DNA of 64,000 nucleotides from NCBI GenBank assembly GCA_945861435.1, contig CAMAUX010000008.1:1-64000 (forward strand). The letters are read 5' to 3'. Positions 5,560 through 35,703 of this stretch are shown piece after piece. The notes beneath the pieces were generated by a model. That model was not told the origin of the DNA, made no database searches, and saw nothing but the letters and a program-made list of their open reading frames with translations. The first letter of the stretch is position 1. Every line of letters starts with the position of its first letter. The position numbers and the translations under genes were made by a program. The stretch comes from Chthoniobacter flavus (GTDB taxonomy: Bacteria > Verrucomicrobiota > Verrucomicrobiia > Chthoniobacterales > Chthoniobacteraceae).

Positions 5560-5922
5560 ATGAAAAAGACTTTTCCGCTCCATGCCCCTGGCCGTGAGGA
5601 CCGTCGGGTATTGGAAGCGATCAAAACTGAGATTGTGCGGTATCTGAAGAGGGAGCGTCGGAAGGCGCTTCCTGAGGGCGGGGATTTTTGGGGGTTCGAC
5701 TGCCGTGTGGGGAAGGGGCGGGAGGAGGCTGTGAAGGTGAGAGCGTCCGAGGTGGGGACTGCGGTGGACGCGGTGGCTGGGGAAGGCGCTGGAGAGGTGT
5801 ATGTGGAGATTCTTGCGTTTGCGGGGCGGCGCGCGCGGAGTGGCGGAGAGGATGCTGGTGAGAGTGCTGGTGAGAGTGCTGGTGAGAGTGCTGGTGAGAG
5901 TGCTGGGGGAGTGGAGCCATGA
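5560..5922 (+). CDS. DUF6172 family protein with GESA repeat tail
   Basis: A 120-residue protein. It begins MKKTFPLHAPGREDRRVLEA and continues RYLKRERRKALPEG and DFWGFDCRVG, the conserved core of the DUF6172 family, whose function is unknown. The start at 5560 is chosen over an in-frame one at 5527 because the family begins exactly at MKKTFPL. The last 25 residues are an AGES/GESA repeat encoded by a perfect 12-base unit (GGTGAGAGTGCT) at about 5853-5907, likely disordered and length-variable. It overlaps engB by four bases (ATGA), so the two are probably co-translated. Confidence 0.75.
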   Translation: MKKTFPLHAPGREDRRVLEAIKTEIVRYLKRERRKALPEGGDFWGFDCRVGKGREEAVKVRASEVGTAVDAVAGEGAGEVYVEILAFAGRRARSGGEDAGESAGESAGESAGESAGGVEP

Positions 5923-6554: not shown

Positions 6555-7651
6555 CCCTTGAGGATCTGGGGTGGAACGGATTTTTCGCGGAGAGGTTTGC
6601 GGCGTATGAGGGCAAGGGCTGGCAGCCTGCGCGGCTGATTCGCGACAACAAGATCACGTACGGGGCTTTGCTGGGGGACGGGACCGAGCTGGAGGTGGTG
6701 ATGGGAGGGAAGGTGTATCACGATGCGGAGACGGATGCGGAGCTGCCGGCGGTGGGGGACTGGGTGGCGTTGGAAGTGGGCGGGGATGGGCGTGAGCACG
6801 TGATCCGGGCGCGGCTGCCGCGGCAGACTTGCCTGTCGCGCAAGATGCCTGGTCGGAGCACACAGGAGCAGGTGATCGCTGCGAATACGGACGTGGTGGT
6901 GGTGGTGACGGACGCGGGCACGGATTTCAATGTGCGGCGCATGGAGCGGTACTTTGCGATCATTGGGCGCAGCCGTGCGCGCGCGGTGGTGTTGGTGAAC
7001 AAGGCGGATCTTTTTTCGGAGGAACAGAGCCGGGGCGCGGCGGAGTCGATCCGTGCATTGAATCCGGAGGCGGAGGTGCTTGTGACGAGTCTGCGCAGGA
7101 AGGCGAGTCTTGCGGGGTTGAAGGCGCATCTGACGCGCGGGGTGTCGCTGACGTTTGTGGGATCGAGCGGGGTGGGGAAATCCTCGGTGATCAACCATCT
7201 GCTGGGCGGCGACTACCAGTGGACGGACGAGGTGAACGAGAACACGGGGAAGGGGCGGCATACGACGACGGCGCGCGAGCTGATGGTGCTGCGCAAGGGG
7301 GGGATCATCATCGACAATCCTGGCATCCGCGAGGTGCACATGTGGACTGATGAGACGACGTTGCGGGAGCGTTTCGCGGATATCGACGAACTTGCACGCC
7401 ATTGCAAGTTCGACAACTGCCAGCACGGGCCGCGGGCTGCGGGCTGCGCGATCCAGACGGCGCTGGCAGAGGGCAGGATGGATGCGCGGCGCTTGGAGGG
7501 TTTTTTGAAGCTGGACGAGGAGATTGCGAAACTGCGTGCGGCGCGTGAGAAGCGGCAGATGACGGTGGAGCGTCATGCCCGGCGTGAGCAGCAGAGCAAG
7601 TCGCGCAGGTACGCGGCGCGGCGCGATGCGGATCTTGAAGACGAGTACTGA
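6551..7651 (+). CDS. rsgA: Small ribosomal subunit biogenesis GTPase RsgA
   Basis: A 366-residue circularly permuted GTPase of the RsgA/YjeQ family, which acts late in 30S maturation. An N-terminal OB-fold (to about residue 100) is followed by G4 (VNKAD, 149-153), the P-loop GSSGVGKSS (204-212) and G3 (DNPG, 255-258), the permuted order typical of the family. The C-terminal zinc site is CKFDNCQHGPRAAGC (C285, C290, H292, C299). A basic tail rich in R and K (from about 330) may contact rRNA. The start overlaps the engB stop as ATGA. All active-site motifs are present. Confidence 0.96.
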   Translation: MTLEDLGWNGFFAERFAAYEGKGWQPARLIRDNKITYGALLGDGTELEVVMGGKVYHDAETDAELPAVGDWVALEVGGDGREHVIRARLPRQTCLSRKMPGRSTQEQVIAANTDVVVVVTDAGTDFNVRRMERYFAIIGRSRARAVVLVNKADLFSEEQSRGAAESIRALNPEAEVLVTSLRRKASLAGLKAHLTRGVSLTFVGSSGVGKSSVINHLLGGDYQWTDEVNENTGKGRHTTTARELMVLRKGGIIIDNPGIREVHMWTDETTLRERFADIDELARHCKFDNCQHGPRAAGCAIQTALAEGRMDARRLEGFLKLDEEIAKLRAAREKRQMTVERHARREQQSKSRRYAARRDADLEDEY

Positions 7652-7875
7652 GGCTGGCGGAGCGGCGGGGATGGGGGTGCGGTGAAAAGAGTGTGGGTTG
7701 GAAGGCGGATGGGATCGGAGGATGGAGGCCGCAGAGGGCGTGGCCGGCGGCATGCATGCGTTGAGATCGCAGGGGGAGGTGCGTGGTGGGGTTGATGGGC
7801 ATGGGAATGTTTGGTGGGGAAAAACAGGGTTGTCGCGGGGCGGGTGGGGGACACAGAGTGCGTGGCTAAGCCCGT

Positions 7876-9747: not shown

Positions 9748-9777
9748 TGGCGGTGGTTTCTTTTCGCGACAAAGCAA

Positions 9778-9805
9778 AGCCCCGGCTCCTTGGGGAACCG
9801 GGGCT
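9778..9805 (-). terminator. Rho-independent terminator-like hairpin
   Basis: AGCCCCGG pairs perfectly with CCGGGGCT around a 12-base apex that itself can pair (CTCC with GGAA/GGGG). On the minus strand the stem is followed by TTTGCTTTG, so it best terminates the Spy-like gene whose stop is at 9846. It also lies 30 bases after the + strand kinase stop and may serve both directions, although the + side lacks a T run. Confidence 0.65.
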
Positions 9806-9845
9806 GCTGTGGTTGCGGATGTTGGGGCTGACGCGTTGCTGACTG

Positions 9846-10658
9846 TTATTGGGCGTCGCCGTCCTTCTTTGCGCGGGTGCCTGGGCGCGCGGGCGCGGAG
9901 TCTCCGGCGGACGGTGAGGCGCCTCTGGAACCATCGCGCATCTTGGCTTTTTGATCCGGGGTGAGGATCTCGGTGAACTCCTCCATCTGGCTGTGGATGA
10001 GTTCGCGGGCCTTTTGTTTATCGGCATCGGAGGTGTTTTCGCGGCCCTTGGACATGAGTTCGCGCAGTTCGCCGGCGTTTTTTTCAAAGATGGTGCGCGC
10101 CTTTTCCTGCTGCTCGGAGGTGAGGTCGAGCTTCTCAGTCATCGCCTTGATGCGGTCGCCCGCGTTGCCGCGTTGGGAGTCCGCGCTGGCGGAGCCCTGG
10201 CCATCCCGACGGCTTTTCATGGCCTCCATCATCTTGGATTTTTGGTCCGGGTTGAGGACGGCGGTGACTTCTTCCAACTGACTGCGCATCAACTCGCGGA
10301 ATTTCTCGCGGTCGGCCTCGGTGGCTTTTTCGCGGCCCTTGGCCATGAGTTCGCGCAACTGGCTGGCGTTCTTTTCGTAGATGTCGCGGATCTTCTGCTG
10401 CTGTTCGGAAGTGAGGCCGAGTTTTTCGGTCATCATCTTGAGGCGATCCTCGGGAGCCATGCGGGGGGCGTCTCCGGCGGGTCTTTGGGTGGAGTCGCCA
10501 TCCGGACGTCCGCGTTTTGGGGTGGACGCCTCAGCGGAGGGTTTGGGCTCTTCTGCGCGGGCGGGGAGAAGGGCGGAGGTGGCGAGGGTTGCGGTTGCGG
10601 TGAATGCAGCCAGACGCGCGAATCCGGATCCGAATGCTGGGGTGAACTGGGTTTTCAT
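9846..10658 (-). CDS. Secreted Spy/CpxP-like LTxxQ protein with duplicated module
   Basis: A 270-residue protein with a signal peptide ending near ALLPARAEE. It has two copies of an about 85-residue helical module. Each starts MTEKLxLTSEQQ, continues with xxIxEKNAxxLRELMxKGRE and ends LxPDQKxKM. LTxxQ motifs define the Spy/CpxP family of periplasmic chaperones and stress sensors, although metal-related functions are also known. Duplication of the whole module is less usual, since family proteins often have one copy plus a dimer interface. It stands alone, convergent with the kinase at 7876-9747. Confidence 0.78.
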   Translation of the reverse strand: MKTQFTPAFGSGFARLAAFTATATLATSALLPARAEEPKPSAEASTPKRGRPDGDSTQRPAGDAPRMAPEDRLKMMTEKLGLTSEQQQKIRDIYEKNASQLRELMAKGREKATEADREKFRELMRSQLEEVTAVLNPDQKSKMMEAMKSRRDGQGSASADSQRGNAGDRIKAMTEKLDLTSEQQEKARTIFEKNAGELRELMSKGRENTSDADKQKARELIHSQMEEFTEILTPDQKAKMRDGSRGASPSAGDSAPARPGTRAKKDGDAQ

Positions 10659-20605: not shown

Positions 20606-22918
20606 CTATTTTCCGGGGTTGGGATCGCGGGGGGCGTGGATGTTCGAGGGCGTGATCACGTGGACATCGCCGTCCACTGAGAGTTGGTGCCCGGCGATTT
20701 CTGCGCAGAAGCGGAGGGCTTTGTGAGCGGGAACATTGCTGAACTGGAGGGTGATCCTGGCCTTGGGATCGCCGCCGGGTTTGACGAGGACGTTCAGGCC
20801 TTTTTTCTGGGGATCGAGTTCGCGGCTTTTGATGCGGATGAACTCCACGGCCTCTGTGAGTGAGGCGTCCTTGAACTGCACATTTGGGAGGATGATCGCG
20901 CGGGCGTGGGCCTCGGCGGGGCTCTGGGCTTGGGGGGCTGGGGCGGCGGGCGGGATGTTGGTGCTTTTCTGTTGAGCTTCAAAGTCGGACTGCGGGAGCA
21001 GGGTGACGGTGAAACGTTCGACCGCGAGGTGGAGGTTGGAGAGTTGGGCCACATACTTGAGTGCCTCACCGAGGGGGATGTGATTGAGGCTCAGGGTGAT
21101 TGTGGGCCCCGGGGTTTTATCGTCCGGTTTGATGACGATGTTGACGCCCTTCTGCGTTGGATCCGTGGTGGTCGTGTCAAGGTCGATGCTTCTGCGGCGG
21201 AGGAACTCGACCGCCTCGGTGAGGGTGGCGTTTTGGAACTGCACCTGAGGGATCACGATTGCGTCCAGCTTGGCTTGGATCGGGCTTTTCTCGGTGGCAG
21301 GTTGGGGATCGATGGGCTGGCCGGAGGCGGGATCGATGAGACGCGCGGTGACAAAGACGATGATGCGCTTTGTGGTGGGCGCCGTTGTTGTGCTGGCGGG
21401 GCTTGCGGGGCGGTCTGCGGGGGGTTGGTTTTTTGTGGTGGAGGGTAATTCGATCACGACGGTTCCTCCGGAGATGATGCTGACGAGGGTTGTGACCTTG
21501 CGTTCGTTAAAGACGGGTTGCGGGTTTGTGCCGTCCGCTTTTGTCATGCCTTCGAGTTCCACGATTTGGGGTGACAGCTCGAGTTCGATTTCGTTCCGTG
21601 CGCCTTTGATGGGGAGCACGGTGAGAGTGGTGCCGAGGTTTTTCGCGGCTGGCTTGCCCTCGGTGTTCACGTAGGCGAATTCGCGGATGATCTCGATCGT
21701 GGCCTTGCGGCCGGACTGGGTGGTGATTCGAGGGGTGGAGAGGACGTCGACTCCCTTGGCGGTCTCGATCTTTTTCCACAGGGTGCTGAGTTCCCCGCTG
21801 GTGAGGACGCCGGCGACGCTTGGTGAAGCCGATGAGGAAGCAAAGGGGGAGAGGAGGTCTTTTGCTTCCTCACTGGCCTCGATGAATCTGGCTTCGATGT
21901 CCACCTGTGGGGCTTTGTTGTCCGGTGGGACGGCCTTGGTGATGCCGAGGAAGGTGAGGAGCGCGATGGCGGGGGCGAGCGAGGTTTTCATGAAAGGATG
22001 CTGGGTGGGGTGGGCTGCGATGGACTGGATGCGCGAACGGAGGGCGGCGCCGCGCTGGAAGATGCCGACGAAGCCGAGGCTGAGTTTGTGGTGGCCGAAG
22101 GCGTTTTCCACTTTCAGGAGCGTGTGCCCGTAGGCGACGCGTTCCGGTTGTGGTGCGTGGTCGAGCATCTGGGCATCGCAGGCGGCTTCGCGTTCGGTGC
22201 GGGCTTTGAAGAAGGCGAGCCAGAGGAGGGGCTTGAACCAGTGCAGTGAGAGGAGCAGGCAGAGCAGGGCGTTGAGGGGAAGGTCGCCACGCTTGATGTG
22301 GGTGAGTTCATGCTTGAGGACGAACCGGGCCTCTTGGGCGGTGAGTGCTTCTTCGAAGTGGGCTGGGAGGAGCAGCGTGGGATGGAGCAAGCCGGTGACG
22401 GCGGGGCTGCGGATTTCCGGGCTCATCCACACGCGTGGGCAGCGGGGAAGGCCGGTCTGGCGCGCGAGCGTGGCGATTTCGAGGAGGAGCGCATCAGTTG
22501 CGGGGACTTGGCTGCGTTGGAAACGCCGGAGTGTTTGCACGAATGCACCGAGGCTGAACAGCGCGACGCCGGCGGCACCGGTCAGCCATACGAGGCTGAG
22601 AATGGGGCGCCATGCGATGGGCGCGGTGGGTGCGTGGGTTGCGACAATCTGCAGGGTGGAGTTGGGTGCTGGTTGCATCATCGCGGGTGCGGGCGATGGG
22701 GTGGGGGAGGAGTGGATGATGGATTCGACGCTCCAAGGGCTTCCTGGAAAAGCGGGTGTCAGCAGCACTGCGAGCACCGGCATCCACAGTGCGTAGCGCC
22801 AGCGGGCGGGGACGCGTTTCCGCAGGATGAACTGCACGATGAGCACGGCCACGGTGAGAAGGGAGGCGCGGGTGCTGGTGGCGAGGACCCAGTCAAAGAG
22901 GGGGGTGGGCGAGTGCAT
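20606..22918 (-). CDS. M56 (BlaR1-like) membrane metallopeptidase fused to secretin-like and two STN-like modules
   Basis: A 770-residue chimera. Residues 1-250 are an M56 peptidase with transmembrane helices, the zinc site HELTH (203-207) and the downstream EREAACDAQM helix. This is the BlaR1/MecR1 module that cleaves a cytoplasmic repressor on signal. Another helix follows (about 311-330). Residues about 340-550 resemble a secretin core (DVLSTPRITTQSGRKATIEI, LELSPQIVEL, RIIVFVTARLID). Then come two related STN-like modules, each starting VQFxxAxLTEAVEF. The BlaR1 penicillin-binding sensor is absent. A BlaI-like gene lies seven bases upstream, so signalling by repressor cleavage is likely. 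Confidence 0.85.
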   Translation of the reverse strand: MHSPTPLFDWVLATSTRASLLTVAVLIVQFILRKRVPARWRYALWMPVLAVLLTPAFPGSPWSVESIIHSSPTPSPAPAMMQPAPNSTLQIVATHAPTAPIAWRPILSLVWLTGAAGVALFSLGAFVQTLRRFQRSQVPATDALLLEIATLARQTGLPRCPRVWMSPEIRSPAVTGLLHPTLLLPAHFEEALTAQEARFVLKHELTHIKRGDLPLNALLCLLLSLHWFKPLLWLAFFKARTEREAACDAQMLDHAPQPERVAYGHTLLKVENAFGHHKLSLGFVGIFQRGAALRSRIQSIAAHPTQHPFMKTSLAPAIALLTFLGITKAVPPDNKAPQVDIEARFIEASEEAKDLLSPFASSSASPSVAGVLTSGELSTLWKKIETAKGVDVLSTPRITTQSGRKATIEIIREFAYVNTEGKPAAKNLGTTLTVLPIKGARNEIELELSPQIVELEGMTKADGTNPQPVFNERKVTTLVSIISGGTVVIELPSTTKNQPPADRPASPASTTTAPTTKRIIVFVTARLIDPASGQPIDPQPATEKSPIQAKLDAIVIPQVQFQNATLTEAVEFLRRRSIDLDTTTTDPTQKGVNIVIKPDDKTPGPTITLSLNHIPLGEALKYVAQLSNLHLAVERFTVTLLPQSDFEAQQKSTNIPPAAPAPQAQSPAEAHARAIILPNVQFKDASLTEAVEFIRIKSRELDPQKKGLNVLVKPGGDPKARITLQFSNVPAHKALRFCAEIAGHQLSVDGDVHVITPSNIHAPRDPNPGK

Positions 22919-22924
22919 GGGGGC

Positions 22925-23305
22925 TCAGGATTTGAGGGATTGATCGAGGATCCGCTTCAACTCGCGCACCTCGTCGGCGGTGAGTTTGTTGTTTTGAGCG
23001 AAGTGGACGAGGAGGGGTTTGGCTGCGCCGCCGAAGATGCGTGTCATGAAGGACTCTCCTTCTGCGCGGACGCAGGTCTCGCGTTTGACTGCGGGGCGGT
23101 AGGTGCGGGTGCCTGAGGTGTTCTCGCCCGTGCTGAGGGCGCCCTTTTGGAGCAGGCGGGTGAGGAGTGTGCGCACGGTGTTCTCGGCCCAGTGCATGGA
23201 GGGGCGGAGTGTTTTTGTGAGTTCGGAGGCGGTCTGAGGGGAGGACTTCCACAGGGCCTCCATGAGGATCCATTCGGAGGCGGAGATATCGGGTGGAGCT
23301 GGCAT
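22925..23305 (-). CDS. BlaI/MecI-family transcriptional repressor
   Basis: A 126-residue winged-helix repressor. ISASEWILMEALWKSSPQTA, AENTVRTLLTRLLQKGAL and the basic wing RTYRPAVKRE are typical of BlaI/MecI/CopY. The C-terminal helices form the dimer and carry the usual proteolysis region. The start at 23305 is preferred; an in-frame ATG at 23317 overlaps the first operator dyad. Two TACA/TGTA-type dyads lie directly upstream (23317-23355). The M56 gene follows after seven bases. By analogy with BlaR1-BlaI, the peptidase would inactivate this repressor. Confidence 0.9.
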   Translation of the reverse strand: MPAPPDISASEWILMEALWKSSPQTASELTKTLRPSMHWAENTVRTLLTRLLQKGALSTGENTSGTRTYRPAVKRETCVRAEGESFMTRIFGGAAKPLLVHFAQNNKLTADEVRELKRILDQSLKS

Positions 23306-23316
23306 GGATGGTATCA

Positions 23317-23328
23317 CTACATGTGTAG
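23317..23328 (-). promoter_or_regulatory. BlaI-type operator dyad, proximal
   Basis: CTACATGTGTAG: arms CTACA and TGTAG around two bases. The BlaI/MecI consensus is a TACA/TGTA dyad. It lies 12 bases before the chosen start codon, so bound repressor would block transcription or initiation of the repressor-M56 operon. Confidence 0.72.
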
Positions 23329-23570: not shown

Positions 23571-24320
23571 TTAGTGGAGGACGTAGACGAGGTTTTCCAT
23601 GACGCCGTTGGCCCAGCGGATGGCGTCCTCGCCGTTATAGTGGATGCCGTCGCTTCCTGTTTTGCCGCGGACGTAGTGGGTGAGTCTGCGGGAGTCGATG
23701 AGGGCCTCGAAGCGTTCCTTGTAGGCGCTGCTGCGGATGATTTCGCGGACGGTGGCTTGTGCGGATTTGGAGAATTTGGAGGAGTCCGGAGGGAGGATCC
23801 AGATGACGCGTTTGCCGCGGAGGGCGGTGCCGAGGTTGTGGAGGACGGCTTGTTTTTTGCGGATATCCTCGGTGGAGGATTCCTTGGCGAAGTCGTCGAG
23901 CCAGTTGGTGCCGAGCTGGATGATGACGACCTCGGGTTTGTGGAGAGCGAGGAGCTTTTCGATTTTTGGGGTGTTGACGGCTGGCGGGCGCTTGCCGTCG
24001 ACGTAGTCGATGTAGGCGGAGCGGGTGCTGGTGGTCATGCGGAAGCCGCACCGGGTGACGAAGGTGGGTTCGTTGGCGAGCCAGTGTTCGGGGGAAGAGC
24101 CGCAGGAGGCGTAGAGGGCGAAGTTGGACGCGCCGTAGCGGGCGATGAGTTGTCCTTGGATGGAGGAGCCGAAGGTGCCGACGCTCAGAGAGTCGCCGAT
24201 GAAGAGGATGGACGGGGGGGCCGTGGGCGTATTGGGAGAGGCCGGTGTGGCGGCCGGAGTGGTGCGCGCAGCGAGGATGAGCAGGCAGGAGGAGACCAGG
24301 AGGAGAAGGCGGCGGGACAT
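23571..24320 (-). CDS. Secreted SGNH/GDSL hydrolase
   Basis: A 249-residue protein with a signal peptide (LLLLVSSCLLILAARTTPA). SGNH block I is ILFIGDSLSVGTFG (serine near 44). Block III is in VVIIQLGTNWLDDF, and the catalytic D-x-x-H is in GSDGIHYNGEDA. A YASCGSSPEHWL segment is shared with the larger protein at 24343-26691 (YMACGTVPLSWL), so the two are paralogues. SGNH proteins in such loci act as O-acetyltransferases or esterases on polysaccharide. It begins 22 bases after the FHA-SGNH stop, on the same strand. Confidence 0.82.
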   Translation of the reverse strand: MSRRLLLLVSSCLLILAARTTPAATPASPNTPTAPPSILFIGDSLSVGTFGSSIQGQLIARYGASNFALYASCGSSPEHWLANEPTFVTRCGFRMTTSTRSAYIDYVDGKRPPAVNTPKIEKLLALHKPEVVIIQLGTNWLDDFAKESSTEDIRKKQAVLHNLGTALRGKRVIWILPPDSSKFSKSAQATVREIIRSSAYKERFEALIDSRRLTHYVRGKTGSDGIHYNGEDAIRWANGVMENLVYVLH

Positions 24321-24342
24321 GGGTGGGGCTTGGGGCCTCGGG

Positions 24343-26691
24343 TCACTCTCCGCGGGCGGGAAACTTGGAGTCGTCTACGGTTTGGATGAAAGGAAGGAGT
24401 TCGGCGCGGCCCGACTGATCGCTGGCCTTGATGGCGCCCCAGGGGGTTTCGTCGAGGTCGCGGAGGACGAGTTCGTAGGTCTGGCCGACGCGGTATTTGC
24501 TGAGGGATTGCGGCTGGAGGCGGATATGGGAGGGGTGCATGACGAGGACTTGTTTGTCCTGATATTCGCCGTCGATGACTTTGAGGACGTCGTAGACGTA
24601 GGCGACGACGGATTCCTGATAGGGGAGGAACTGGTTGGTGCGCAGTGGGGTGGATTTGAATGTGAGGCGGGCTTGGAGGGCGACGGTGCGTTTGCGTTTC
24701 TCGATCCCTTGCGTGAGGGGTTGAGGGGATTCGGAGGTGTGCTCGGCGGTGAGTGTGGTGGGGAGGTCGCCGGAGTGGACGTCGTGCAGGATTTGATCGA
24801 AGACCTTGTCGGCCCAGCGGTCCATGTCTGCGCCCATGAAGTGTTCCTTGTCGGGCTGCATGCTGGTGTAGGGGTAGCTGATGAGGGTGCGGCTGTTGAT
24901 GACGGTGGCGGCGGGGCCTGCGTATTTGCGTGCGCGTTCGAGGAGGAAGTCTTGGACGGCCTCGCCCATGCGGCCGGAGGTGGGTGGGGCGACCCAGTAG
25001 ACCTTGCGCAGGGAGGAGTGGGATTCGAGGAGCTTCTGGGTGAAGGGGTTGATGTAGTTTCTGAGCATCGTGTCGTGGCGGTCCGGGTTGACCGTCTTGC
25101 AGTCGGAGAACAAACCGAAAAGATTGGTTCCTGTCTGCATGACGAGGATGTCAGGTTGGAGTTTTGTGAGCAGGTCCTCGAGTTTTGGGACGGTGTGAGG
25201 GCCCGGACGGTAGCCGCGGCGCATGCCGTAGGTGTCTTGGAGGGAGATGGGTTTGCCGGCCGATTGTTCGATGCTCCAGAACCCGCAGCAGGTGCGGATG
25301 TTGGCGTACCCCGGTACTTTGAGCCAACTGAGTGGGACGGTGCCGCAGGCCATGTAGGTGTAGGTGGCTTTGACCTCTGGGGTGTCGCGGAAGCGGGAGT
25401 CGAGGCGCTTGCCGAAGCCGCAGAGACTGAGGGAGTCTCCAAGGATGAGGACGGTGAGGTCCTTCGTCGGCTTCGCCGTGCGAGCCTTTTCCGGTCCATT
25501 GGCTACGGGGTGTGGTGTGGTGTCCTTGCTCTGGTCTGTGGAGCGGAAGGCGAGCATCGGCTTCTCCACGGAGTCCGGGGTTTCCTTGGGGGGAGCGGTG
25601 TCGGCTGGATCTGGCGTCGCGCTCTGGGGTTGTTCGGGTGACGGGGTTTGGGTGGCCGGAGTGGCGGATGGCTCAGGAGTGGAATCCTTCTTCGGCTCGG
25701 GAGTTGGGGACTGTGGCTGATCTGGCGCGGCGGATTTTTCTGCGATGGGTTCGGCGGAGACAGCCGAGGCACTCGCTGGTGGTGAGGGGGGAGGAGGACG
25801 GAAGGTCGGTGCTGCGGATTCGGAATCCTTTTCGGGCGGTGCTGGTGTGGTGTCCTCGAGCTTGGGACTTTCTATGGACTCAGTTGCAGGGTCTTGGCGT
25901 TCCTCAGTGGCTGAGATGTCCTGAGGGACGGTGCTGGGGAGCGTGGTCTGGGTCTCTCGCGCGGGCTCTGGTTCTGGTTGAGTGGAGTTCGTTGAGAGCG
26001 CGAGTTCCGTGACGCTGAGCCTGTCACTGGCGGCGAGGATTGCAGCGATCGGAGGGGGTTGAGTGGTAGCAGCTTCTGCTGAGGTGGGTTCGGTGGCGAA
26101 GGGCTGGGTCGGGGGGCGGTGGGCTGCGAACTTGGCGATGGCGATGCTGCCGGTGCCGACGAGCAGGAGGATGAGGACGGCGGCGACTTGGAGCCAGGGG
26201 CGGTTTTGCTTCCGGGGATTGGTGGTTGGATCTTGGGGTGTCGCCGTGGAATCGCTCGCTCGCGACTCGTGTAAATCAGACGCGCGTGCATCTGCATGGA
26301 CAGCGGCAATGGTGGCGGGATGCTGCGATTGCGGGGGGAGTGCGGATGCGGGCGACTGAATGGGGAGGGCTTCGAGGCGGCAGGCGACGGAGCCGAGGTG
26401 GAAGGTGCAGGGCAGGCGGAGCTCGACTTCGGTGATCTGGGATCCGTTGACGAGGACGCCGTTGAGGGAACCGAGGTCGCGGAGGAGGAGGGAGCTGTCG
26501 CTCAGGCGGATGAATTCGGCGTGGGTGCGAGAGACGCTTTCGGAGAGGATCTGGGCTTGGTTGTTGTCGAGGCGTCCTGCGGTGAAGCGTTCGGAGGAGA
26601 CTTGAATTTGGAAGGGATCGCCTTCCGTGGGTGTGGCTGTGAGGAGCCACGTCGCCAGTGTTGCGGGTTGGTTGGGGGCGGCGGCGTTCAC
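24343..26691 (-). CDS. FHA domain - transmembrane - proline-rich linker - SGNH hydrolase fusion
   Basis: A 782-residue fusion. Residues about 20-105 are an FHA domain (FTAGRLDNN, SESVSRTHAEFI, DLGSLNGVLVNG), which binds phosphothreonine. A single helix follows (about 183-205, VAAVLILLLVGTGSIAI), then some 200 residues of Pro/Thr/Ser/Glu-rich linker. An SGNH domain starts VLILGDSLSLCGFG and has MQTGTNLFGLF. After it comes a C-terminal domain of about 110 residues (PYQESVVAYVYDVL) that seems related to the C-terminus of the protein at 29338-31053. FHA would face the cytoplasm and SGNH the periplasm, linking kinase signalling to cell-surface modification. That last step is inference. Confidence 0.82.
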   Translation of the reverse strand: MNAAAPNQPATLATWLLTATPTEGDPFQIQVSSERFTAGRLDNNQAQILSESVSRTHAEFIRLSDSSLLLRDLGSLNGVLVNGSQITEVELRLPCTFHLGSVACRLEALPIQSPASALPPQSQHPATIAAVHADARASDLHESRASDSTATPQDPTTNPRKQNRPWLQVAAVLILLLVGTGSIAIAKFAAHRPPTQPFATEPTSAEAATTQPPPIAAILAASDRLSVTELALSTNSTQPEPEPARETQTTLPSTVPQDISATEERQDPATESIESPKLEDTTPAPPEKDSESAAPTFRPPPPSPPASASAVSAEPIAEKSAAPDQPQSPTPEPKKDSTPEPSATPATQTPSPEQPQSATPDPADTAPPKETPDSVEKPMLAFRSTDQSKDTTPHPVANGPEKARTAKPTKDLTVLILGDSLSLCGFGKRLDSRFRDTPEVKATYTYMACGTVPLSWLKVPGYANIRTCCGFWSIEQSAGKPISLQDTYGMRRGYRPGPHTVPKLEDLLTKLQPDILVMQTGTNLFGLFSDCKTVNPDRHDTMLRNYINPFTQKLLESHSSLRKVYWVAPPTSGRMGEAVQDFLLERARKYAGPAATVINSRTLISYPYTSMQPDKEHFMGADMDRWADKVFDQILHDVHSGDLPTTLTAEHTSESPQPLTQGIEKRKRTVALQARLTFKSTPLRTNQFLPYQESVVAYVYDVLKVIDGEYQDKQVLVMHPSHIRLQPQSLSKYRVGQTYELVLRDLDETPWGAIKASDQSGRAELLPFIQTVDDSKFPARGE

Positions 26692-26703
26692 GGAGGGGAC
26701 GAC

Positions 26704-27813
26704 TTACTTGGTGAGCGGGACCAACTGCCAACCGGAGTCCGCCTCGGTGAATTCGCGCGCGCTCAAACACCAGACGACGACCTTTTTATGCGTCAGGTAG
26801 GCGGGATCTTTGACGCTGCGACGGAAGAGGCTGAGGCGGACGGGAGTGGCGCCGCTGCCTCGGGTGCCGATGACGTCCGGGGCGAAGCCCAGTTCGTGGG
26901 CGAGCTGGTCCGCGAGACCGGAGCGTTCGGCGAGGAAGTCGTGGAAGACGAGGGTGTGGCTGTCGCCGAGGAGGAGGAGGGGGCTGGAGGGGTCTGTGTC
27001 CACTGGGGCGCCGCTCCCGGAATGGCTGATGGAGCGGACGTCGATTTTTTCCGGGGATGGGGTCGTGGATGCTGCGCCTGCGAGTGTGAGGAGGTCGCCT
27101 TGGATGGGGACGGATTTCCATTCCGCCTGGAAGGTGTTGGGAGCGGGCGTGGGGAGTTTTGAGCGGATGGAGCCCGCAATTTCCTGAGCGGCCAGCACGC
27201 AGGCGCTACCGGACCAGTGAGTGTCGGTGGCGCAGAACATGGGGCCGTGTGCTCCGGCGCGGTTGGCGGTGAAGAGTGGGGCGAGGTCGAGGGTTTCGAC
27301 GCCGGCCTCGCGCAGTGCGGCGAGGAAGTTTGCGATCGGCGCTGTGGTGGGGGCGGAGGGTGTGGAGCCGGTGCCGAAGAGTTTCTCCGGGTAGATGGAG
27401 GCCTTTGGGGGGACGGGTACGAGGAGGAGGGTGATGCCGCGCGCCTTGAGTTGGGTGTGGAAGTTGACGATGGCAGGGAGCGGGTCCGCCCATTCGGGTT
27501 TGGGGGAGCGGCTGGTTTTTGGGGCGTCTGCGCCCCAGAAGCGCGGGAAGGAGAGCATCCGCAATTCTGCGGGGAGGAAGAGCCAGCCGTCGGAGCCTTG
27601 GACGACGTTTTGGCCTGCGCGTTCAGCGGTTTGGAAGCGTGCGGCGAAGTCTGCCGGGGAGGGATCTGCGGTGGCCTGCAGGGTGAGTGCTAGGGAGGCG
27701 GCGAGTGCGCACGGGAGGGTGCGCGCTAGCAGCGTTCCGAGGGGCTTGGAAGTGGACGGGAATAAGGCTCCCAGCATTTCCCCGATCATTAGCCTCGGGG
27801 GGGCGGGATTCAA
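26704..27813 (-). CDS. AlgX/AlgJ-like O-acetyltransferase (SGNH-like)
   Basis: A 369-residue secreted protein resembling the alginate O-acetyltransferases AlgJ and AlgX. VVQGSDGWLFLPAELRMLSF opens the domain. Then come ARGITLLLVPVPPKASIYPE, the catalytic D-x-H in CATDTHWSGSA, and the serine motif LLLLGDSHTLVFHDFLAE. The export signal is LPCALAASLALTLQATA. Starts at 27789 or 27777 would give a more compact signal peptide. It lies 12 bases before the FHA-SGNH gene and is divergent from the MBOAT gene at 27866. It likely transfers acetyl groups delivered by the MBOAT protein to a polysaccharide. Confidence 0.83.
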   Translation of the reverse strand: MNPAPPRLMIGEMLGALFPSTSKPLGTLLARTLPCALAASLALTLQATADPSPADFAARFQTAERAGQNVVQGSDGWLFLPAELRMLSFPRFWGADAPKTSRSPKPEWADPLPAIVNFHTQLKARGITLLLVPVPPKASIYPEKLFGTGSTPSAPTTAPIANFLAALREAGVETLDLAPLFTANRAGAHGPMFCATDTHWSGSACVLAAQEIAGSIRSKLPTPAPNTFQAEWKSVPIQGDLLTLAGAASTTPSPEKIDVRSISHSGSGAPVDTDPSSPLLLLGDSHTLVFHDFLAERSGLADQLAHELGFAPDVIGTRGSGATPVRLSLFRRSVKDPAYLTHKKVVVWCLSAREFTEADSGWQLVPLTK

Positions 27814-27865
27814 CTTTCAATTTGGGTTATGCAGATCTAGTTTTGCGTGCTCGGAGCGCGGCGGC

Positions 27866-29338
27866 ATGGTTTTCAGTTCGCATATCTTCATCTACTTTTT
27901 TCTGCCGCTGACCCTTTTGGGTTATTACCTGCTGCGAGGCGCGCCGCAGCGCTGGCGAAACCTGTGGCTGGCGGGGACTGGGTACGTGTTTTATGGGTGG
28001 GCTGAGCCGCGTTTTGTGGGGCTGATGTTTGCCACCACGTCGTTGGATTGGATGCTGAGTCTTGTGATCGCGCACGACGAGTGGCGGCCGTGGCGGTGGA
28101 GGGGGGAGCCGCCGGGTTTGGAGCGCGGGGGTGCGCGCAGTGGGAGGCAGAGGCGGGCGCTGCTGGGGTCGGTGATGAGCAACCTGCTGGCGCTCGGGGT
28201 GTTCAAGTACTTCAACTTTGGATTGGAGAGTCTGAACGCGATGCTGGCCGGTTGCGGGCTTGATCAAATGCAGTGGGAACCGGCGTGGCGCATTGTGCTG
28301 CCGCTGGGCATTAGCTTCTACACGTTCCAGGCTCTTAGCTATATCATCGATGTGTACCGCGGGGACGCGCGGGCGATGGCGAACTTCGTGGATTTTTCGT
28401 GTTTCGCCTCGATGTTGCCGCATCTGGTGGCGGGGCCGATCCTGAAGTTCTCGTTCCTTGCCGAGCAACTGCGTTCGCGGACGTTGACGGTGGACAAGTT
28501 TGCACGCGGTGCGGCGTTCTTTTTGATGGGTCTTTCCAAGAAGGTGCTGCTGGCCAATCCGTGCGGGAAGATCGCGGATACGGCTTTCGACGCGGGAGCG
28601 CGAGGGGTGGTGGAGGCGTGGATGGGGGCGGTGGGTTATGCGTTCCAGATTTATTTCGATTTCAGCGGGTACTCGGACATGGCGGTGGGGTTGGGGCTGA
28701 TGTTCGGATTCGTATTCGCGAAGAATTTTGACGCGCCGTACCGGGCGGAATCGCTGACGGACTTTTGGCGCAGATGGCACATCTCACTGTCCACCTGGCT
28801 GCGGGAATACCTGTACATTCCGCTGGGCGGGAATCGGCGGGGGACGGTGCGCACGTACTTCAATCTTGTGGTGACGATGGTGCTGGGCGGGCTCTGGCAC
28901 GGGGCGTCGTGGAATTTTCTGATCTGGGGAGGGTTGCACGGTGGTGTTCTGGCGTGGGAGCGGATGCAAGGGGGAGGAGGGGTGTTGCGGAAGGCGCCGA
29001 GGGTGGTGCGAATGGGGCTGACTTTTGGGGTGGTGCTGGTGGGGTGGGTGTTTTTTCGTGCGGCGGATCTGCCGCGAGCGTGGAGGTATCTGGGCGATTT
29101 ACTCGGGCTGCATGCCGTGCCGGAGTCGGCTTCCCTGCTGGGCGGAGCGCTGATGCGGCCCTCGCTTCTTGGGGCGCTGGGGGTGGCGGCGCTGGTGGTG
29201 TGGGGTGGGCGGCAGACATGGGAATGGACGCAGCGGCTCACGCTGGCGAAGGCTGCGGTTTGCCTTGGGGTGGGGGCGCTGGCGCTCGTGGTGCTGGCGA
29301 CGCAGGAGTATAATCCGTTCATCTATTTCATCTTCTGA
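27866..29338 (+). CDS. AlgI-like membrane-bound O-acyltransferase (MBOAT)
   Basis: A 490-residue multi-pass protein starting MVFSSHIFIYFFLPLTLLGY, the standard AlgI/DltB-like start. It contains VLPLGISFYTFQALSYIIDV, LPHLVAGPILKF, YFDFSGYSDMAVGLGLMFGF, DFWRRWHISLSTWLREYLYI and the catalytic histidine region LGGLWHGASWNFLIWGGLHG. Family members move acetyl groups from cytoplasmic donors across the inner membrane to a periplasmic partner. The downstream AlgJ-like gene overlaps its stop (start codon at 29338), so the two are co-translated. A divergent AlgX-like gene starts 52 bases away. Confidence 0.93.
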   Translation: MVFSSHIFIYFFLPLTLLGYYLLRGAPQRWRNLWLAGTGYVFYGWAEPRFVGLMFATTSLDWMLSLVIAHDEWRPWRWRGEPPGLERGGARSGRQRRALLGSVMSNLLALGVFKYFNFGLESLNAMLAGCGLDQMQWEPAWRIVLPLGISFYTFQALSYIIDVYRGDARAMANFVDFSCFASMLPHLVAGPILKFSFLAEQLRSRTLTVDKFARGAAFFLMGLSKKVLLANPCGKIADTAFDAGARGVVEAWMGAVGYAFQIYFDFSGYSDMAVGLGLMFGFVFAKNFDAPYRAESLTDFWRRWHISLSTWLREYLYIPLGGNRRGTVRTYFNLVVTMVLGGLWHGASWNFLIWGGLHGGVLAWERMQGGGGVLRKAPRVVRMGLTFGVVLVGWVFFRAADLPRAWRYLGDLLGLHAVPESASLLGGALMRPSLLGALGVAALVVWGGRQTWEWTQRLTLAKAAVCLGVGALALVVLATQEYNPFIYFIF

Positions 29339-31053
29339 TGAGCACGCCGCCCCCACATTCCGAGGCAGGGTTGCGTCGTGCGGAACCGGCGCCCAGACCG
29401 ACGCTCCTCAGTCGAGAAGAGGAGGCGGAGCAGACGCTTGGGAACTCTGAGTTCGGGGCGGGCGCGCGAGCGCTGCTGGTGGGCGGGTTTCTTGCGGTGA
29501 TGCTTCTTGTGCCGGTGATGCAGGTGGTTGCCGAGGCGCGCGCACACGGGCTGGGCGGGCGGTGGCCGATGCTGGGGGTGTTGCGCGTGCTGCCGTCCTT
29601 GGCGGAGGTGCGGGCCGTTCGTTCGCTTTCAGGATTGTGGGCTTTGGTGCCGCATGCCGAGCGGATCAAGGCTGCGGAGAAGCAGCTGGAGAAGGAGTCG
29701 GTGCTCGCTCTGGGGCTGAGGCCGCGGGTGCAGGAGTTTTGCACGGGTGTGCTGGGCGCTGGGAGTGAGCAGGCGCTGCCCGGCAGTGGGGGATGGTTGT
29801 TTTATCGGCCGGATGTGGAGTACGTGACGGGGCCTGCTTTTCTGGATGGGGCGAGGCAGTTGCAGAGAAGGCGGGAGGCGGGTGTGCAGCCGGATCCGAT
29901 GGCGGCGATTGTGGATTTCCGGGATCAGTTGAAGCGGCGCGGTATTGAACTGTGGGTGGTGCCGGTGCCTGTGAAGCCCTGCGTGGAGGGGCGCCACTTT
30001 GGAGCGGAGTCGGAGCGTGTGTTGCACAACGCCTCTTTCGGGGAGTTCTGTGCGCGGATGGAACGGGCGGGGGTGCGGATGTTTGATGTGGGGGCCGAAC
30101 TGGAGCGGGTGCGAGTGAAGACGGGCGGTGGGCCGTTGTATTTGGAGGCGGACACTCACTGGAGGCCGGAGACGATGCGGGCGGTGGCGGAGGCGCTTGC
30201 TGTGAGGATCGATCCGCAGGCGTTGGGCGTCGGATCCGGAGGGACTCGTGAGGCGGCGCTATTGGAGAAGCGGGTTTCCGGGATGGGGGATACGGTGGCG
30301 CTGTTGGGTTTGGCATCGACGCAGACGCGGTACCGGGCTCAGGAGGTGACGATCTGGCAGGTGCCGCAGGGCAGCGGGCTGTGGCGGCCGAGTCCGTCGG
30401 CGGATGTGCTGTTGCTGGGCGACAGTTTTGCAAACCTGTATTCGATGGAGGCGATGGGATGGGGCGAGGGGGCGGGTTTCGCGGAGCATTTGAGCCGTGG
30501 GTTGGGGCGGCCGGTGGATGCGATTGTGCGCAATAGTGACGGGGCGTTTGCTACGCGGGAGTTGCTGGCGCGCGAACTGCGTCAGGGGCGGGACCGGCTT
30601 GCGGGCAAGAAAGTGGTGGTGTGGGAGTTCGCGGCGCGTGAGCTGGCGTTTGGGGATTGGAAGCTGTTGGCGCTGGAGCTCGGGCAGCGCGCGGAGTCGC
30701 GGTTTCTGAGTGTGGAAGCGGGGCGCGAGGTGAGTGTGGAGGCGACGGTGGCTTCGGTGTCGGTGGTGCCGCGGCCGGGATCGGTGCCGTATTCCGAGCA
30801 CATTTTGACGGCGCATCTTGTGGATTTGGCGAGTGGTGGTGGGACGCGCGGAGCCGATGCGCTGGTGTGCGTCTGGAGCATGCGCGGGCAGCAGTGGACG
30901 GCGGCGGCGCGTTGGCGGGCGGGGGATCGCGTGCGATTGCGTGTGCGCGCGTGGGGGGACGTGGCGGGACGTTATGAGAAGATCAACCGCAGCGAGCTTT
31001 CGGACGCGGTCCTGCAGTTGGAGGAGCCGCTCTGGGGAGAGCTTGAACCGTAG
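29338..31053 (+). CDS. AlgJ-like O-acetyltransferase with C-terminal extra domain
   Basis: A 571-residue protein with one membrane anchor (about 46-66, LLVGGFLAVMLLVPVMQVV). The SGNH-like domain has SGGWLFYRPDVEYVTG, RRGIELWVVPVPVKPCVEG, the D-x-H in LEADTHWRPET and the serine motif VLLLGDSFANLYS. From about residue 460 a beta-rich domain follows (PYSEHILTAHLVDL, ALVCVWSM, RWRAGDRVRLRV). This is not part of typical AlgJ and seems related to the FHA-SGNH protein's C-terminus. It probably works with the overlapping MBOAT partner to acetylate an exported polysaccharide. Confidence 0.85.
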   Translation: MSTPPPHSEAGLRRAEPAPRPTLLSREEEAEQTLGNSEFGAGARALLVGGFLAVMLLVPVMQVVAEARAHGLGGRWPMLGVLRVLPSLAEVRAVRSLSGLWALVPHAERIKAAEKQLEKESVLALGLRPRVQEFCTGVLGAGSEQALPGSGGWLFYRPDVEYVTGPAFLDGARQLQRRREAGVQPDPMAAIVDFRDQLKRRGIELWVVPVPVKPCVEGRHFGAESERVLHNASFGEFCARMERAGVRMFDVGAELERVRVKTGGGPLYLEADTHWRPETMRAVAEALAVRIDPQALGVGSGGTREAALLEKRVSGMGDTVALLGLASTQTRYRAQEVTIWQVPQGSGLWRPSPSADVLLLGDSFANLYSMEAMGWGEGAGFAEHLSRGLGRPVDAIVRNSDGAFATRELLARELRQGRDRLAGKKVVVWEFAARELAFGDWKLLALELGQRAESRFLSVEAGREVSVEATVASVSVVPRPGSVPYSEHILTAHLVDLASGGGTRGADALVCVWSMRGQQWTAAARWRAGDRVRLRVRAWGDVAGRYEKINRSELSDAVLQLEEPLWGELEP

Positions 31054-32424: not shown

Positions 32425-33867
32425 TCAACCTTCCGCGGCGGTGAAGTCGATCCGTTGCGTGCAGGCTTTTTCGAGCCAGCCGCGAATCGTTTCGCGCAGC
32501 GAGGCACGCTGCGCGGGGGTCATCCGGTCGGCGCGGATATCGGCGAAGATTTTCTCGCAAGCGCGATCGCTCAACTGCGTGCTGCTCACGCCGTGCGCAC
32601 TGAGGACCGCCTTGAGTTCCGCGACGCGCAGCGTCACGCGGTCGCGTCGCGCGTGCGGGCGCTGGCTCGCGTAGGCGAAGGTGCCGATTGCGCGGTCGAG
32701 AAGAATCCACGGGAAATCGAGCGCCGCGCAGCCGACCGACCGTGCGCGGCCGCTCACGGGCTGCCGGATTTTCTCGGGAAGAAATCTCTCCGCAAATTGG
32801 GGAATCCACGTCGAGCGCAGCGGGATATCCACCGCCAGCTCGGGCTGCGTCTTGCCGACGATGAGCGCACCGCCTGCGCCGATCGCGCCACCGATGAGAG
32901 TGCCCAGACCGAAACTATGCCCGACCGTGAGGACATCGAATGCGAGTCCCGCTGCGCCACCGGTGAAGCCGGCCACGGTCGCCAGTTGCGCTGTGCTCAG
33001 GCCCAGCAGACTCCACGTTTCTTCGCTGAAAAGTCCCGCATCGAGCAGGTTCTCACCTGCGCCGACGAGGTGGTGCTTGAACTTCTCGATGAGCTGTCGG
33101 TGCGCCTTCGCCTCCTCACCCGCGATGGTGCGGCGGTAGTCAGCGCGCAGCTTTTCGTCGGAGTCAGCGATGCTCGTTTCGCGGTGCGCGAGGCAGCGGC
33201 AGAGCATCTCGGTGATGATCTCCGCACACTCGCTGATCTTCTGTGTGCGGTCTTCGCGGAGAATCCGCACCGCTTGGCGAATCTTCGGCGCCCATGATTG
33301 TTCGAGGCTGGCGAGCGCTTCGATGAGTGCGAGGCGGTCCTCGAAAGATGCGCGCTGCGCGTTCAGTTCCCACACGATCTTGAAGTGCTGGTCGAGCCGC
33401 GCTTTCCAATCGGCGACATGATCCGCGGCGCTCGTGCGATTGATGATGGTGACGCGCGGCTGGCCGGTGAGCCGTAGGATTTCCATCTCGGCGAGGTTGA
33501 TCTCGCGCAGTGGCTTCGAACCGTCGACGACGTAAATGATGCCGACGCCCTCTGTGATCTTCGCGAGTAACCGGCACTCGGCATCGAACGCGTGCTCGCC
33601 GCGATGCCGCTCGATGAATTGACGGAACACGAGCAGCGGCTCCTTCGCATTGCGCGCCGACTCGAGCTCGGCGAGCGCCTCCGGCGCGTTTTGGAAACCG
33701 GGCGTGTCGAAGAAGACGAAGAGATCATCGAGCACGAACTGCTCGCAGTCGGCCGTCTCGCCGGGGATCGGGCTGACGCGCACGCGGTCGTTCTCGGCGA
33801 GCGTCGAGACGATCGACGATTTGCCGGGATTCACCGCGCCGACGACTGCGAAGGTGGGTGTGTTCAC
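32425..33867 (-). CDS. GTPase with DUF3482-type C-terminal domain
   Basis: A 480-residue protein. The GTPase core has the P-loop VVGAVNPGKSS near the N-terminus, G3 in FFDTPGFQNAPEAL, and IINRTSAADH in the G4 position, a deviation from NKxD. The C-terminal half contains a glycine-rich membrane-like hairpin (VAGFTGGAAGLAFDVL, LGTLIGGAIGAGGALIVG), as in DUF3482 proteins. The frame stays open to 34104, but the GTG at 33867 overlaps the DUF2868 stop as GTGA and directly precedes the P-loop strand. DUF2868-DUF3482 pairs occur in many proteobacteria; function is unknown. Confidence 0.78.
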   Translation of the reverse strand: MNTPTFAVVGAVNPGKSSIVSTLAENDRVRVSPIPGETADCEQFVLDDLFVFFDTPGFQNAPEALAELESARNAKEPLLVFRQFIERHRGEHAFDAECRLLAKITEGVGIIYVVDGSKPLREINLAEMEILRLTGQPRVTIINRTSAADHVADWKARLDQHFKIVWELNAQRASFEDRLALIEALASLEQSWAPKIRQAVRILREDRTQKISECAEIITEMLCRCLAHRETSIADSDEKLRADYRRTIAGEEAKAHRQLIEKFKHHLVGAGENLLDAGLFSEETWSLLGLSTAQLATVAGFTGGAAGLAFDVLTVGHSFGLGTLIGGAIGAGGALIVGKTQPELAVDIPLRSTWIPQFAERFLPEKIRQPVSGRARSVGCAALDFPWILLDRAIGTFAYASQRPHARRDRVTLRVAELKAVLSAHGVSSTQLSDRACEKIFADIRADRMTPAQRASLRETIRGWLEKACTQRIDFTAAEG

Positions 33868-35288
33868 GTGCACGCCTCCACGTCGACGCGCAGCCTCTCG
33901 CGGGCGGCGAAGTCGCGCCACAGTTTCGTGCGGGCTGGATCGTCCTCGGAAAGCAGCACGAGGACACTGCCGTTCGTGCTTGCAGCGGCGACGACCTCGC
34001 CGAGGAAAAGCGTGATCGCGACGATCGGGTCGCGCTCCGCGGGAATGACGACGACGACGTTTGCCGGCGCGGCTTCGCGCACGGCTGCGAACTGCGCGGC
34101 GCACGCGTGGCGCTGGTCGATTTTCACCGGAAACGTCTTCCCGACATGGAGGCGGAATACGCGTGCGACGTGATCGCGCAGCGCGTCGTCGTCGGGTTTG
34201 AGTTCGTCAGAGACGAGAGCGATGCACGCGCTATCTTGTGCGGGGTGCGTGGGCAAAGGCGCGGGGACGGTCTGCGGCGGCGCGGGCTGGCTCTGGGATT
34301 TCACGAGCGGGCCGTTGAGCCGTCGCCACAGTGCGTTTGCCTCGGCGTGATCGAACTGCAGCCTGTGGAGTGCGAGGCGCAGCTTCCGCATTGCGAAGGC
34401 GAGCAGCGCGCCTCGCACGGCGAGGCCGTAAAAGCCGACGGACCAAAACAGAAACGGCCACCACGCGCGCATTGCCTCGGCTGGCAGCGTGGCGTGCGAC
34501 TGGTGCGGCGCGTAGCGCGTGGCGATGACCTGCGCGGCGGTCGGGTGCGCATTCGGCGCCCACGCCCACGGCGAGGCGAAAGACGCGACGAAGCGGCCCG
34601 CGCTTTCCGAGCTGATGTCGAGTGTCGTCTGCCAGCCGAAGCGTTGGTCATGTCCGGCGACGCGCCAGAGCAGCGTGCCGAGCACGCCGATATTGAAGCA
34701 GACCGCGAAGAGCTGCGTGCAGACGAGCAGGGGCCACACGGCGAGCGGGCCGTAGATTTCCCGCCGCCGATCGAGTCGTCCCAGCGCCGCGCCGAGCTGC
34801 AGTCTTTGCTCGCCGGGCAGCCGCCGCATCCCCTCGCCGACTAGGACGAGCAACGCGCGGACGGTGGCCTGCAGTGGACGCCAGGCTGCGGGCAGGAGCG
34901 ATGCGCGACGCAAGAGCCACACGACGAGAGCGCCGAAGATCAGCAGCAGTTGCACACCGAGCGCGCACCCCAGGAAATCGACGACGTTCACCGGTTCCTC
35001 GCCGTGGTAGAGTAGCGCGGGCGACGCGATGATCGCGCCGAGCAGCAACGCCGCGACGATCGCGACAGTGAGCAGGGTGTGCCAGCCCGTGATGAACTGT
35101 TCGCCTGGCAACCCGTCACCTTCCGTTCGCCGCGCGTCGAGCCACGCGTGGAAGATGTCGCGCCGATTGCGCAATCCGAGTGCTGCGATCTTCTCCTCGA
35201 AAATGCGCCGGTCGCGCGTCTCGTCGCCATCGCGCGAGACGAGCGCTTCAAAGTCGATGACGTCAGCGAGCGACCACGAGCGGTTCAC
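33864..35288 (-). CDS. DUF2868 membrane protein, partner of the DUF3482 GTPase
   Basis: A 474-residue protein matching DUF2868 in layout. The soluble N-terminus begins NRSWSLADVIDFEALVSRD. Four hydrophobic segments follow (ITGWHTLLTVAIVAALLLGA, LGVQLLLIFGALVVWLL, LLVCTQLFAVCFNIGVLGTL, WSVGFYGLAVRGALLAFAM). A cytoplasmic C-terminal domain then has ACIALVSDELKP and VVVIPAERDPIVAITLFLGE. The GTG at 35288 is chosen because the family begins there; the 5' extension to 35411 reads through a dispersed-repeat-bearing region. It overlaps the GTPase by four bases, so the two are surely one unit. Confidence 0.75.
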   Translation of the reverse strand: MNRSWSLADVIDFEALVSRDGDETRDRRIFEEKIAALGLRNRRDIFHAWLDARRTEGDGLPGEQFITGWHTLLTVAIVAALLLGAIIASPALLYHGEEPVNVVDFLGCALGVQLLLIFGALVVWLLRRASLLPAAWRPLQATVRALLVLVGEGMRRLPGEQRLQLGAALGRLDRRREIYGPLAVWPLLVCTQLFAVCFNIGVLGTLLWRVAGHDQRFGWQTTLDISSESAGRFVASFASPWAWAPNAHPTAAQVIATRYAPHQSHATLPAEAMRAWWPFLFWSVGFYGLAVRGALLAFAMRKLRLALHRLQFDHAEANALWRRLNGPLVKSQSQPAPPQTVPAPLPTHPAQDSACIALVSDELKPDDDALRDHVARVFRLHVGKTFPVKIDQRHACAAQFAAVREAAPANVVVVIPAERDPIVAITLFLGEVVAAASTNGSVLVLLSEDDPARTKLWRDFAARERLRVDVEACT

Positions 35289-35703
35289 GGCGGGGAAGAT
35301 AGCGGGGTGGTGCGCACAGGGGCAAGTTGCACATCGCGGGCCATTCCGGCCGAAGCGAAGGCGGCAAGAGGCGCACAGCGCAGTCGAGGAAGCCGGAGCC
35401 CACAGAGACAAACTGGTCCATCGTATCTCTGTTAGATGCCGTGAGGTTTTCGACTTGTGCGGGATCCTGCGCGCTTAAAGGCGATGACATCCCAAAACCT
35501 CTCCGGCCGGAGGGCAACCGCAGGTAACGGCGCACGGCGAGGAGCAGGCGGAGCGATGGCTGGCAAAGGGGCTGAAAGCGGGGGGCCTGAGGCAAAGGAT
35601 CTGACCGGGTTGAAAGGAACGCATCCGCGGAAGCTGGCTCTTCCTGAGTTGCTCTGGAAAAGGAGGACAGTTTCGCAGTCCTGCCCCCATTTCCCCACCA
35701 GCT
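35289..35703. other. Intergenic region holding a dispersed repeat
   Basis: About 415 bases. It carries one copy of a 53-base GC-rich repeat (35509-35561) seen again at 58461-58512, and a small AGGAC/GTCCT dyad near 35667. No gene is supported. Confidence 0.55.
35509..35561 (+). repeat. 53-bp dispersed repeat, copy A
   Basis: Matches 58461-58512 with two substitutions and one single-base gap. The shared core is ACGGCGCACGGCGAGGAGCA. Both copies are in intergenic DNA inside the distinct 32-61 kb segment. Confidence 0.8.

Follow-up and report, generated by a model that had tools for sequence, protein, structure and literature searches.

A conserved MBOAT-SGNH gene cassette of Chthoniobacterales with a genus-specific FHA-membrane tether on one of its SGNH proteins

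The 64,000-nucleotide stretch of DNA analysed here (the window), part of a 132 kb contig in a 5.35 Mb genome that is closest, among named relatives, to Spartobacteria/Chthoniobacterales of the Verrucomicrobiota, carries at 23571-31053 a cassette of five open reading frames that is, with high confidence, an MBOAT-SGNH system for the acylation of an envelope polymer, and in which one SGNH protein is joined through a predicted membrane segment and a long linker to an FHA domain. We put the probability of our best explanation as a whole, an acyl-transfer module with an FHA-positioned SGNH enzyme, at about one half (0.5), and its more specific part, a phospho-dependent dock on one SGNH enzyme that is peculiar to this genus, is a tentative proposal to which we give slightly less than even odds. 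To our knowledge, little is understood of how the acylation of bacterial surface polymers is regulated once the genes have been expressed, and the existence of closely similar cassettes in which the same enzyme either carries or lacks a phosphothreonine reader offers a natural comparison between phosphorylation inside the cell and a mark outside it.

The five-gene cassette and its conservation

A preliminary description of this DNA had placed five genes around one divergent promoter, and all five frames are present with the domains it had stated. On the minus strand, the order of transcription is the AlgJ/AlgX-like gene (26704-27813), the FHA-TM-linker-SGNH-OB gene (24343-26691), and a second canonical SGNH gene (23571-24320), separated by 12 and 22 bp, while on the plus strand the MBOAT gene (27866-29338, with its corrected start at the ATG at 27866) is followed by the AlgJ-like gene (29338-31053) with a one-base overlap at 29338. 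The start of the AlgX-like gene is probably the ATG at 27789 or the one at 27777, and with the former the divergent intergenic gap measures about 76 bp (27790-27865); this is the presumed promoter region, and no sigma-70 consensus was found in the locus.

At least 22 loci have all five genes side by side or close by, nearly all of these loci in Chthoniobacterales (19 related loci, L085, L088, and the window), and because the same five recur together in at least 21 loci besides our own, the set is more than a chance neighbourhood and is a real module. The loci share the divergent arrangement apart from L070 and L085, in which the pair of SGNH-OB and SGNH genes has been relocated and the MBOAT and AlgX-like genes still diverge; in genome G012 the SGNH-OB gene lies apart from the other four, and some of the cassette loci stand at contig ends. 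The SGNH and C-terminal half of the FHA protein was found in 15 of the 40 family genomes searched and in 40 of the 213 searched in the order, which fall into 12 of 45 genera. Outside the order, 388 genomes sampled evenly across the phylum gave no full-length SGNH-OB protein.

In an all-against-all BLAST of the flanking frames, no neighbours were broadly conserved between genera, with some flanks common to members within one genus (g2), and we therefore consider the cassette self-contained, with no polymer synthase linked to it or conserved beside it, which agrees with what the preliminary description had read from the window alone. The whole looks like a conserved five-gene set of a soil-and-freshwater verrucomicrobial lineage, built to add acetyl-type groups to a surface sugar polymer.

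The acyl-transfer proteins

The 490 aa protein encoded on the plus strand at 27866-29338 is an AlgI/DltB/PatA-type MBOAT (Pfam MBOAT 2e-29; DltB structure 6bug, E 6e-25) with the histidine motif GLWHGASW, and its C-terminal FIYFIF (29318-29335, plus strand) fits the FxYxxF acyl-shuttle motif; in PatA and DltX, it is the tyrosine of this motif that bears the acyl group (PMC12148441). This ending is present in 25 of 26 MBOAT sequences, the exception, L050, looking frameshifted. With the histidine motif, the FxYxxF tyrosine, and linked extracytoplasmic SGNH partners all in place, the cassette is of the type of the MBOAT-SGNH acyl-transfer systems. The closest solved relatives of this MBOAT by sequence are DltB proteins, with the NCBIfam DltB match below its cut-off, which would favour the transfer of D-alanyl or another group than acetyl, or a lipid or protein target instead of a polysaccharide; we hold this to be improbable, given that the partners are of the AlgJ/AlgX type and not of the DltD type, and that no DltA or DltC gene is seen within the five-gene set. 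A second MBOAT is encoded elsewhere in the window genome (contig C9, locus L048, 8809-9966), and the 20 kb around it yielded no relatives of the remaining cassette proteins.

Both AlgX-like proteins exceed the cut-off of the ALGX profile and carry D-T/S-H-W ahead of GDS, and so belong to the AlgJ/AlgX family (PF16822), this being the circularly permuted motif order that AlgJ has been described to have (PMC4148444). Among solved structures, their closest relatives are AlgJ and AlgX. The minus-strand protein (26704-27813), with DTHW before GDS, is the secreted AlgJ/AlgX-like SGNH protein (Pfam ALGX 5.5e-31; AlgJ 4o8v, E 4e-10), and seems too short to hold the carbohydrate-binding module of AlgX. 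The plus-strand protein (29338-31053, 571 aa; Pfam ALGX 1.3e-28; AlgJ 4o8v, E 1.3e-11 with profile A2) is the membrane-anchored, AlgJ-like one, and consists, in this order, of a cytoplasmic tail, a TM segment, the AlgX domain, and a C-terminal extension, its P-x-K and DTHW/GDS residues being invariant among orthologues. The cytoplasmic N-terminal tail has a conserved SREEEA..L motif, and several relatives have in it a PTPETHRK motif, which is missing from the FHA-bearing genus.

The other two SGNH proteins have their motifs in the canonical order. The 249 aa protein at 23571-24320 (minus strand) has a signal peptide and the series GDS-GTN-DxxH, and matches the GDSL and DUF459/PatB families weakly (Lipase_GDSL 4e-4; DUF459 1e-3, E 0.0013, below cut-off). 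The catalytic domain of the FHA protein (24772-25449, minus strand), with GDSLS, GTN, and DKEHF, finds practically nothing in Pfam (DUF459 E 0.15), so that neither of the two passes the Pfam DUF459 cut-off of the DUF459/PatB SGNH family. In nearly all related loci, a homologue of the shorter protein adjoins the orthologue of the FHA protein, and GDS, GTN, and DxxH are kept in nearly all orthologues of both. Searched against PDB sequences, the SGNH-OB profile gave no match. The fold was read from an AF2 model of medium confidence (mean pLDDT 68 for the SGNH core), for which Foldseek alone gave many spurious long alignments and the values quoted are those of the VIA re-alignment. This model aligns with Ape1, PatB, and CE3 enzymes at Z 13-14.7 over 171-184 residues, the best match being the peptidoglycan O-acetylesterase 4k3u (Z 14.7, 2.9 A, 184 residues). 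The modelled core thus combines a PatB-like fold with the GDS/DxxH order, tied with the esterases, and such a fold alone is insufficient as proof of membership in the PatB family; indeed, as PatB, CE3, and other esterases all score within about 1.5 Z of the top match, the sequence and fold of this SGNH domain do not separate a transferase from an esterase.

This leaves room for the canonical SGNH proteins being Ape1/CE-like de-O-acylases, in which case the one locus would add the group and take it off again, with the FHA controlling the removal of the group instead of its addition. We regard this as a genuine possibility, if the lesser one, and as compatible with our best explanation: an esterase heads the structural matches with CE3 and others close behind, and the transferase roles are already filled by the two AlgJ/AlgX-type proteins, yet PatB transferases lie within about 1.4 Z (7tlv, Z 13.3), and the 23571-24320 protein leans weakly toward DUF459/PatB.

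The FHA-TM-linker-SGNH-OB protein

The central protein of the minus strand (24343-26691, 782 aa, GTG start) begins with an FHA domain at residues 37-100 (26392-26583; Pfam FHA E 3e-11, over cut-off), followed by a single predicted TM segment at residues 167-185 (26137-26193; mean Kyte-Doolittle hydrophobicity 2.35), a linker of about 229 residues rich in Pro, Ala, Thr, Ser, and Glu (25450-26136), which is a predicted periplasmic leash, and the SGNH and C-terminal domains. Because RKQNR stands on the N-terminal side of the TM segment, an N-in/C-out topology is predicted. The corresponding protein of G002, a genome of the same genus, likewise has one TM segment after basic residues, and the Pro-rich linker comes to about 180-230 residues in the two, from which the SGNH domain should stay periplasmic, like the signal-peptide forms.

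Both FHA cases come from metagenome-assembled or draft genomes, which might suggest an artefact of assembly or gene calling. This is scarcely credible, since the FHA, TM, linker, and SGNH parts run through one uninterrupted frame in the window, and the independent genome G002 (locus L049, on a 155 kb contig) repeats the order FHA-TM-linker-SGNH-OB, also in one frame.

The FHA domain combines a profile match with the GR, SxxH, and NG residues of a phosphothreonine-binding FHA, and all six canonical site residues (G39, R40, S54, H57, N77, and G78) are identical in the window and in G002, so that the doubt raised beforehand, whether this FHA keeps such residues, is settled at the level of sequence for both genomes. 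Between the same two proteins, the identity is 34% in the FHA, 69% in the SGNH domain, and 63% in the C-terminal domain. Serine/threonine kinases are present, with 21 kinase-domain matches in the window genome and 20 in G002, and none lies on the cassette contig of either.

Among the 213 genomes of the order that were searched, 40 have the SGNH-OB protein and only two of these, the window genome and G002, have the FHA-TM-linker part. At 23 distinct loci besides these, the N-terminus was read directly and no FHA was found, and the remaining cases were judged by frame length; where the start is clear, it is a Sec-type signal peptide, or in L070 a twin-arginine-like signal (SRRSFLFGMGALAFGG). SGNH-OB frames longer than 700 aa are found in the wider order in G000 and G002 only; that of G010 reaches 627 aa because it stays open upstream of a start with a signal peptide. 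A profile search of 39 cassette genomes placed no FHA at other cassette positions among the matches listed, down to about E 2e-8, and a 2.4 kb insertion between the cassette genes of L088 contains, by eye, an acid-phosphatase-like frame and no stray FHA. In genus g2 (L037, L039, L040, L041, L042, L043, L045, and L046), the SGNH-OB orthologues share a conserved CPC/CAC motif after the signal peptide.

In a tree of 30 sequences, the FHA proteins of the two genomes group as a single nested clade (support 97/91), which makes a gain in this genus the simplest account, and the FHA was probably acquired by an N-terminal replacement of the signal peptide. With 38 of the 40 orthologues of the order devoid of FHA, and with signal peptides at the clear N-termini, gating cannot be a built-in property of the system. 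The preliminary description had proposed acetylation gated by phosphothreonine; what remains of it is that an FHA-TM-linker-SGNH protein does lie inside an MBOAT cassette, in both cases recovered by a search among homologues of this SGNH protein, and what is lost is its generality. The oddity of a membrane-tethered FHA on an SGNH enzyme is likewise borne out, but it is rare, and the literature searched contained no relevant paper joining FHA with SGNH proteins or with exopolysaccharide acetylation.

Proposed mechanism

The sequences show the motifs, their conservation, the synteny, the domain swap, and the intact phosphothreonine-site residues; the topology, the acyl identity, the polymer, and the phospho-dependence in the following scheme are our inference. 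The MBOAT would take an acyl group from acyl-CoA in the cytoplasm, most likely an acetyl group, load it onto the tyrosine of its FIYFIF ending, and present it on the periplasmic side, from where it would pass to an SGNH serine and then to the polymer. The membrane-anchored AlgJ-like and the secreted AlgX-like proteins would hand the group on to an envelope or extracellular polysaccharide, AlgX being the terminal transferase in alginate acetylation (PMC4148444), and the two canonical SGNH proteins would have this polymer as their target too, whether they serve as additional transferases or as editing esterases.

In most relatives, the SGNH-OB protein would be freely secreted, and in this genus the FHA-TM-linker would hold its SGNH domain at the inner membrane; such retention is nearly certain if the predicted topology is right. 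The FHA in the cytoplasm would bind a phosphothreonine protein, which may be a Ser/Thr kinase or some phosphorylated component of the synthesis machinery, and this binding would decide the place or the time of SGNH action, with a phosphothreonine dependence that is likely but hypothetical. In its full form, a Ser/Thr-kinase signal would act through the FHA so that the TM segment and leash position or switch the periplasmic SGNH enzyme, and a surface polysaccharide would be O-acylated or de-acylated in a phospho-gated manner, the gate having arisen from the swap of a signal peptide for an FHA-TM part in one genus; we consider this complete chain possible rather than probable. The FHA would more likely control where the enzyme is than gate its catalysis directly, as a flexible linker of 180-230 residues conducts a conformational change poorly.

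Since the system works without an FHA in most relatives, control by the FHA would be a lineage-specific add-on to a system otherwise free of it, and the domain may be an anchor only. Some secretion-system proteins have FHA-like domains that join or hold partners without phospho-control, and a passive, constitutive anchor or scaffold of this kind would fit the many orthologues that do without the FHA, the lack of a cassette-linked kinase, and the far greater divergence of the FHA compared with the SGNH domain. We nevertheless think it the less likely reading, given that a mere anchor would not need the six phosphothreonine-site residues, yet both diverged copies keep every one of them. Returning to the FHA-positioned SGNH enzyme that we prefer, its wiring through the membrane to an outside-facing enzyme in this genus alone hints at signal control of surface modification.

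Relation to known systems

The cassette resembles the alginate O-acetylation system of Pseudomonas (AlgI/AlgJ/AlgF/AlgX) in having an MBOAT, an anchored AlgJ-like protein, and a secreted AlgX-like protein with the permuted DxHW...GDS order, but in the genes looked at around the locus no AlgF was recognised and no alginate synthase lies nearby, and it adds two canonical SGNH proteins and the FHA tether. With the peptidoglycan system PatA/PatB/Ape1, it shares an MBOAT with the FxYxxF C-terminus and canonical-order SGNH proteins of PatB/Ape1-like fold, whereas PatB has no FHA; the cassette joins AlgJ/AlgX-type and PatB/Ape1-type SGNH proteins with one MBOAT.

The mycobacterial FhaA-MviN and Rv1747 are FHA proteins controlling envelope steps, and the likeness lies in a cytoplasmic FHA that is attached to a membrane-bound envelope machine or acts on it, together with the presence of Ser/Thr kinases; these envelope-controlling FHAs are not known to be fused across one TM segment to a periplasmic SGNH enzyme.

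The MBOAT and AlgJ-like SGNH pair also recalls the cellulose acetylation systems WssFGHI and CcsHI, but the cassette stands outside any cellulose-synthase operon. Cellulose was considered as the substrate and is unsupported, the window genome (96% complete) having no TIGR03030 CelA match at E 1e-20, and CelA is not found over the cut-off in the 40 genomes of the family. Many genomes of the same family without the cassette have a single CelA-like match, mostly of about 500-550 aa, and most cassette-bearing genomes of genus g2, together with the window genome, have none, so that the cassette and a CelA-like gene are possibly inversely associated in the family.

The C-terminal domain and other observations

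The C-terminal domain of the FHA protein (24346-24714, minus strand) has no Pfam match, and its AF2 model, built from 32 sequences (pLDDT 90.7), is a predicted OB/NTR-like beta barrel, for which the matches to solved structures are weak and consistently of this kind (complement C345C, PriB, and SSB, Z 5.5-6.6); we therefore assign the fold tentatively. Outside the order, the domain ends long proteins or sits in AlgX-domain proteins (L080, L105, L107, and L116), often with MBOAT or AlgX-like genes adjoining. In L080 (around 5211-9981), a long protein with the domain and a LamG match is directly followed by an MBOAT gene and two AlgX-like genes, and in L116 and L107 the domain lies inside AlgX-domain proteins, with an MBOAT gene following in L107. 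By this recurrence in other MBOAT-AlgX loci, the C-terminal domain is a modular part of these systems, perhaps for docking or glycan binding, and it points to an unnamed OB/NTR-like domain travelling with MBOAT systems in Verrucomicrobiota. A kinship between this domain and the C-terminal extension of the AlgJ-like protein was also considered and is unsupported (profile comparison probability 2.8%), a possible link between the two being only through the L116 AlgX-domain protein that carries the OB/NTR-like domain.

Around the cassette, the frame at 20606-22918 (minus strand) encodes a single 770 aa protein that unites a BlaR1-type M56 peptidase domain with a secretin-family domain, an unusual combination, and a BlaI-type repressor gene (22925-23317) adjoins it. 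On the other side, at 32425-35411 (minus strand), a DUF3482 GTPase and a DUF2868 protein are encoded side by side, a pair that looks conserved.
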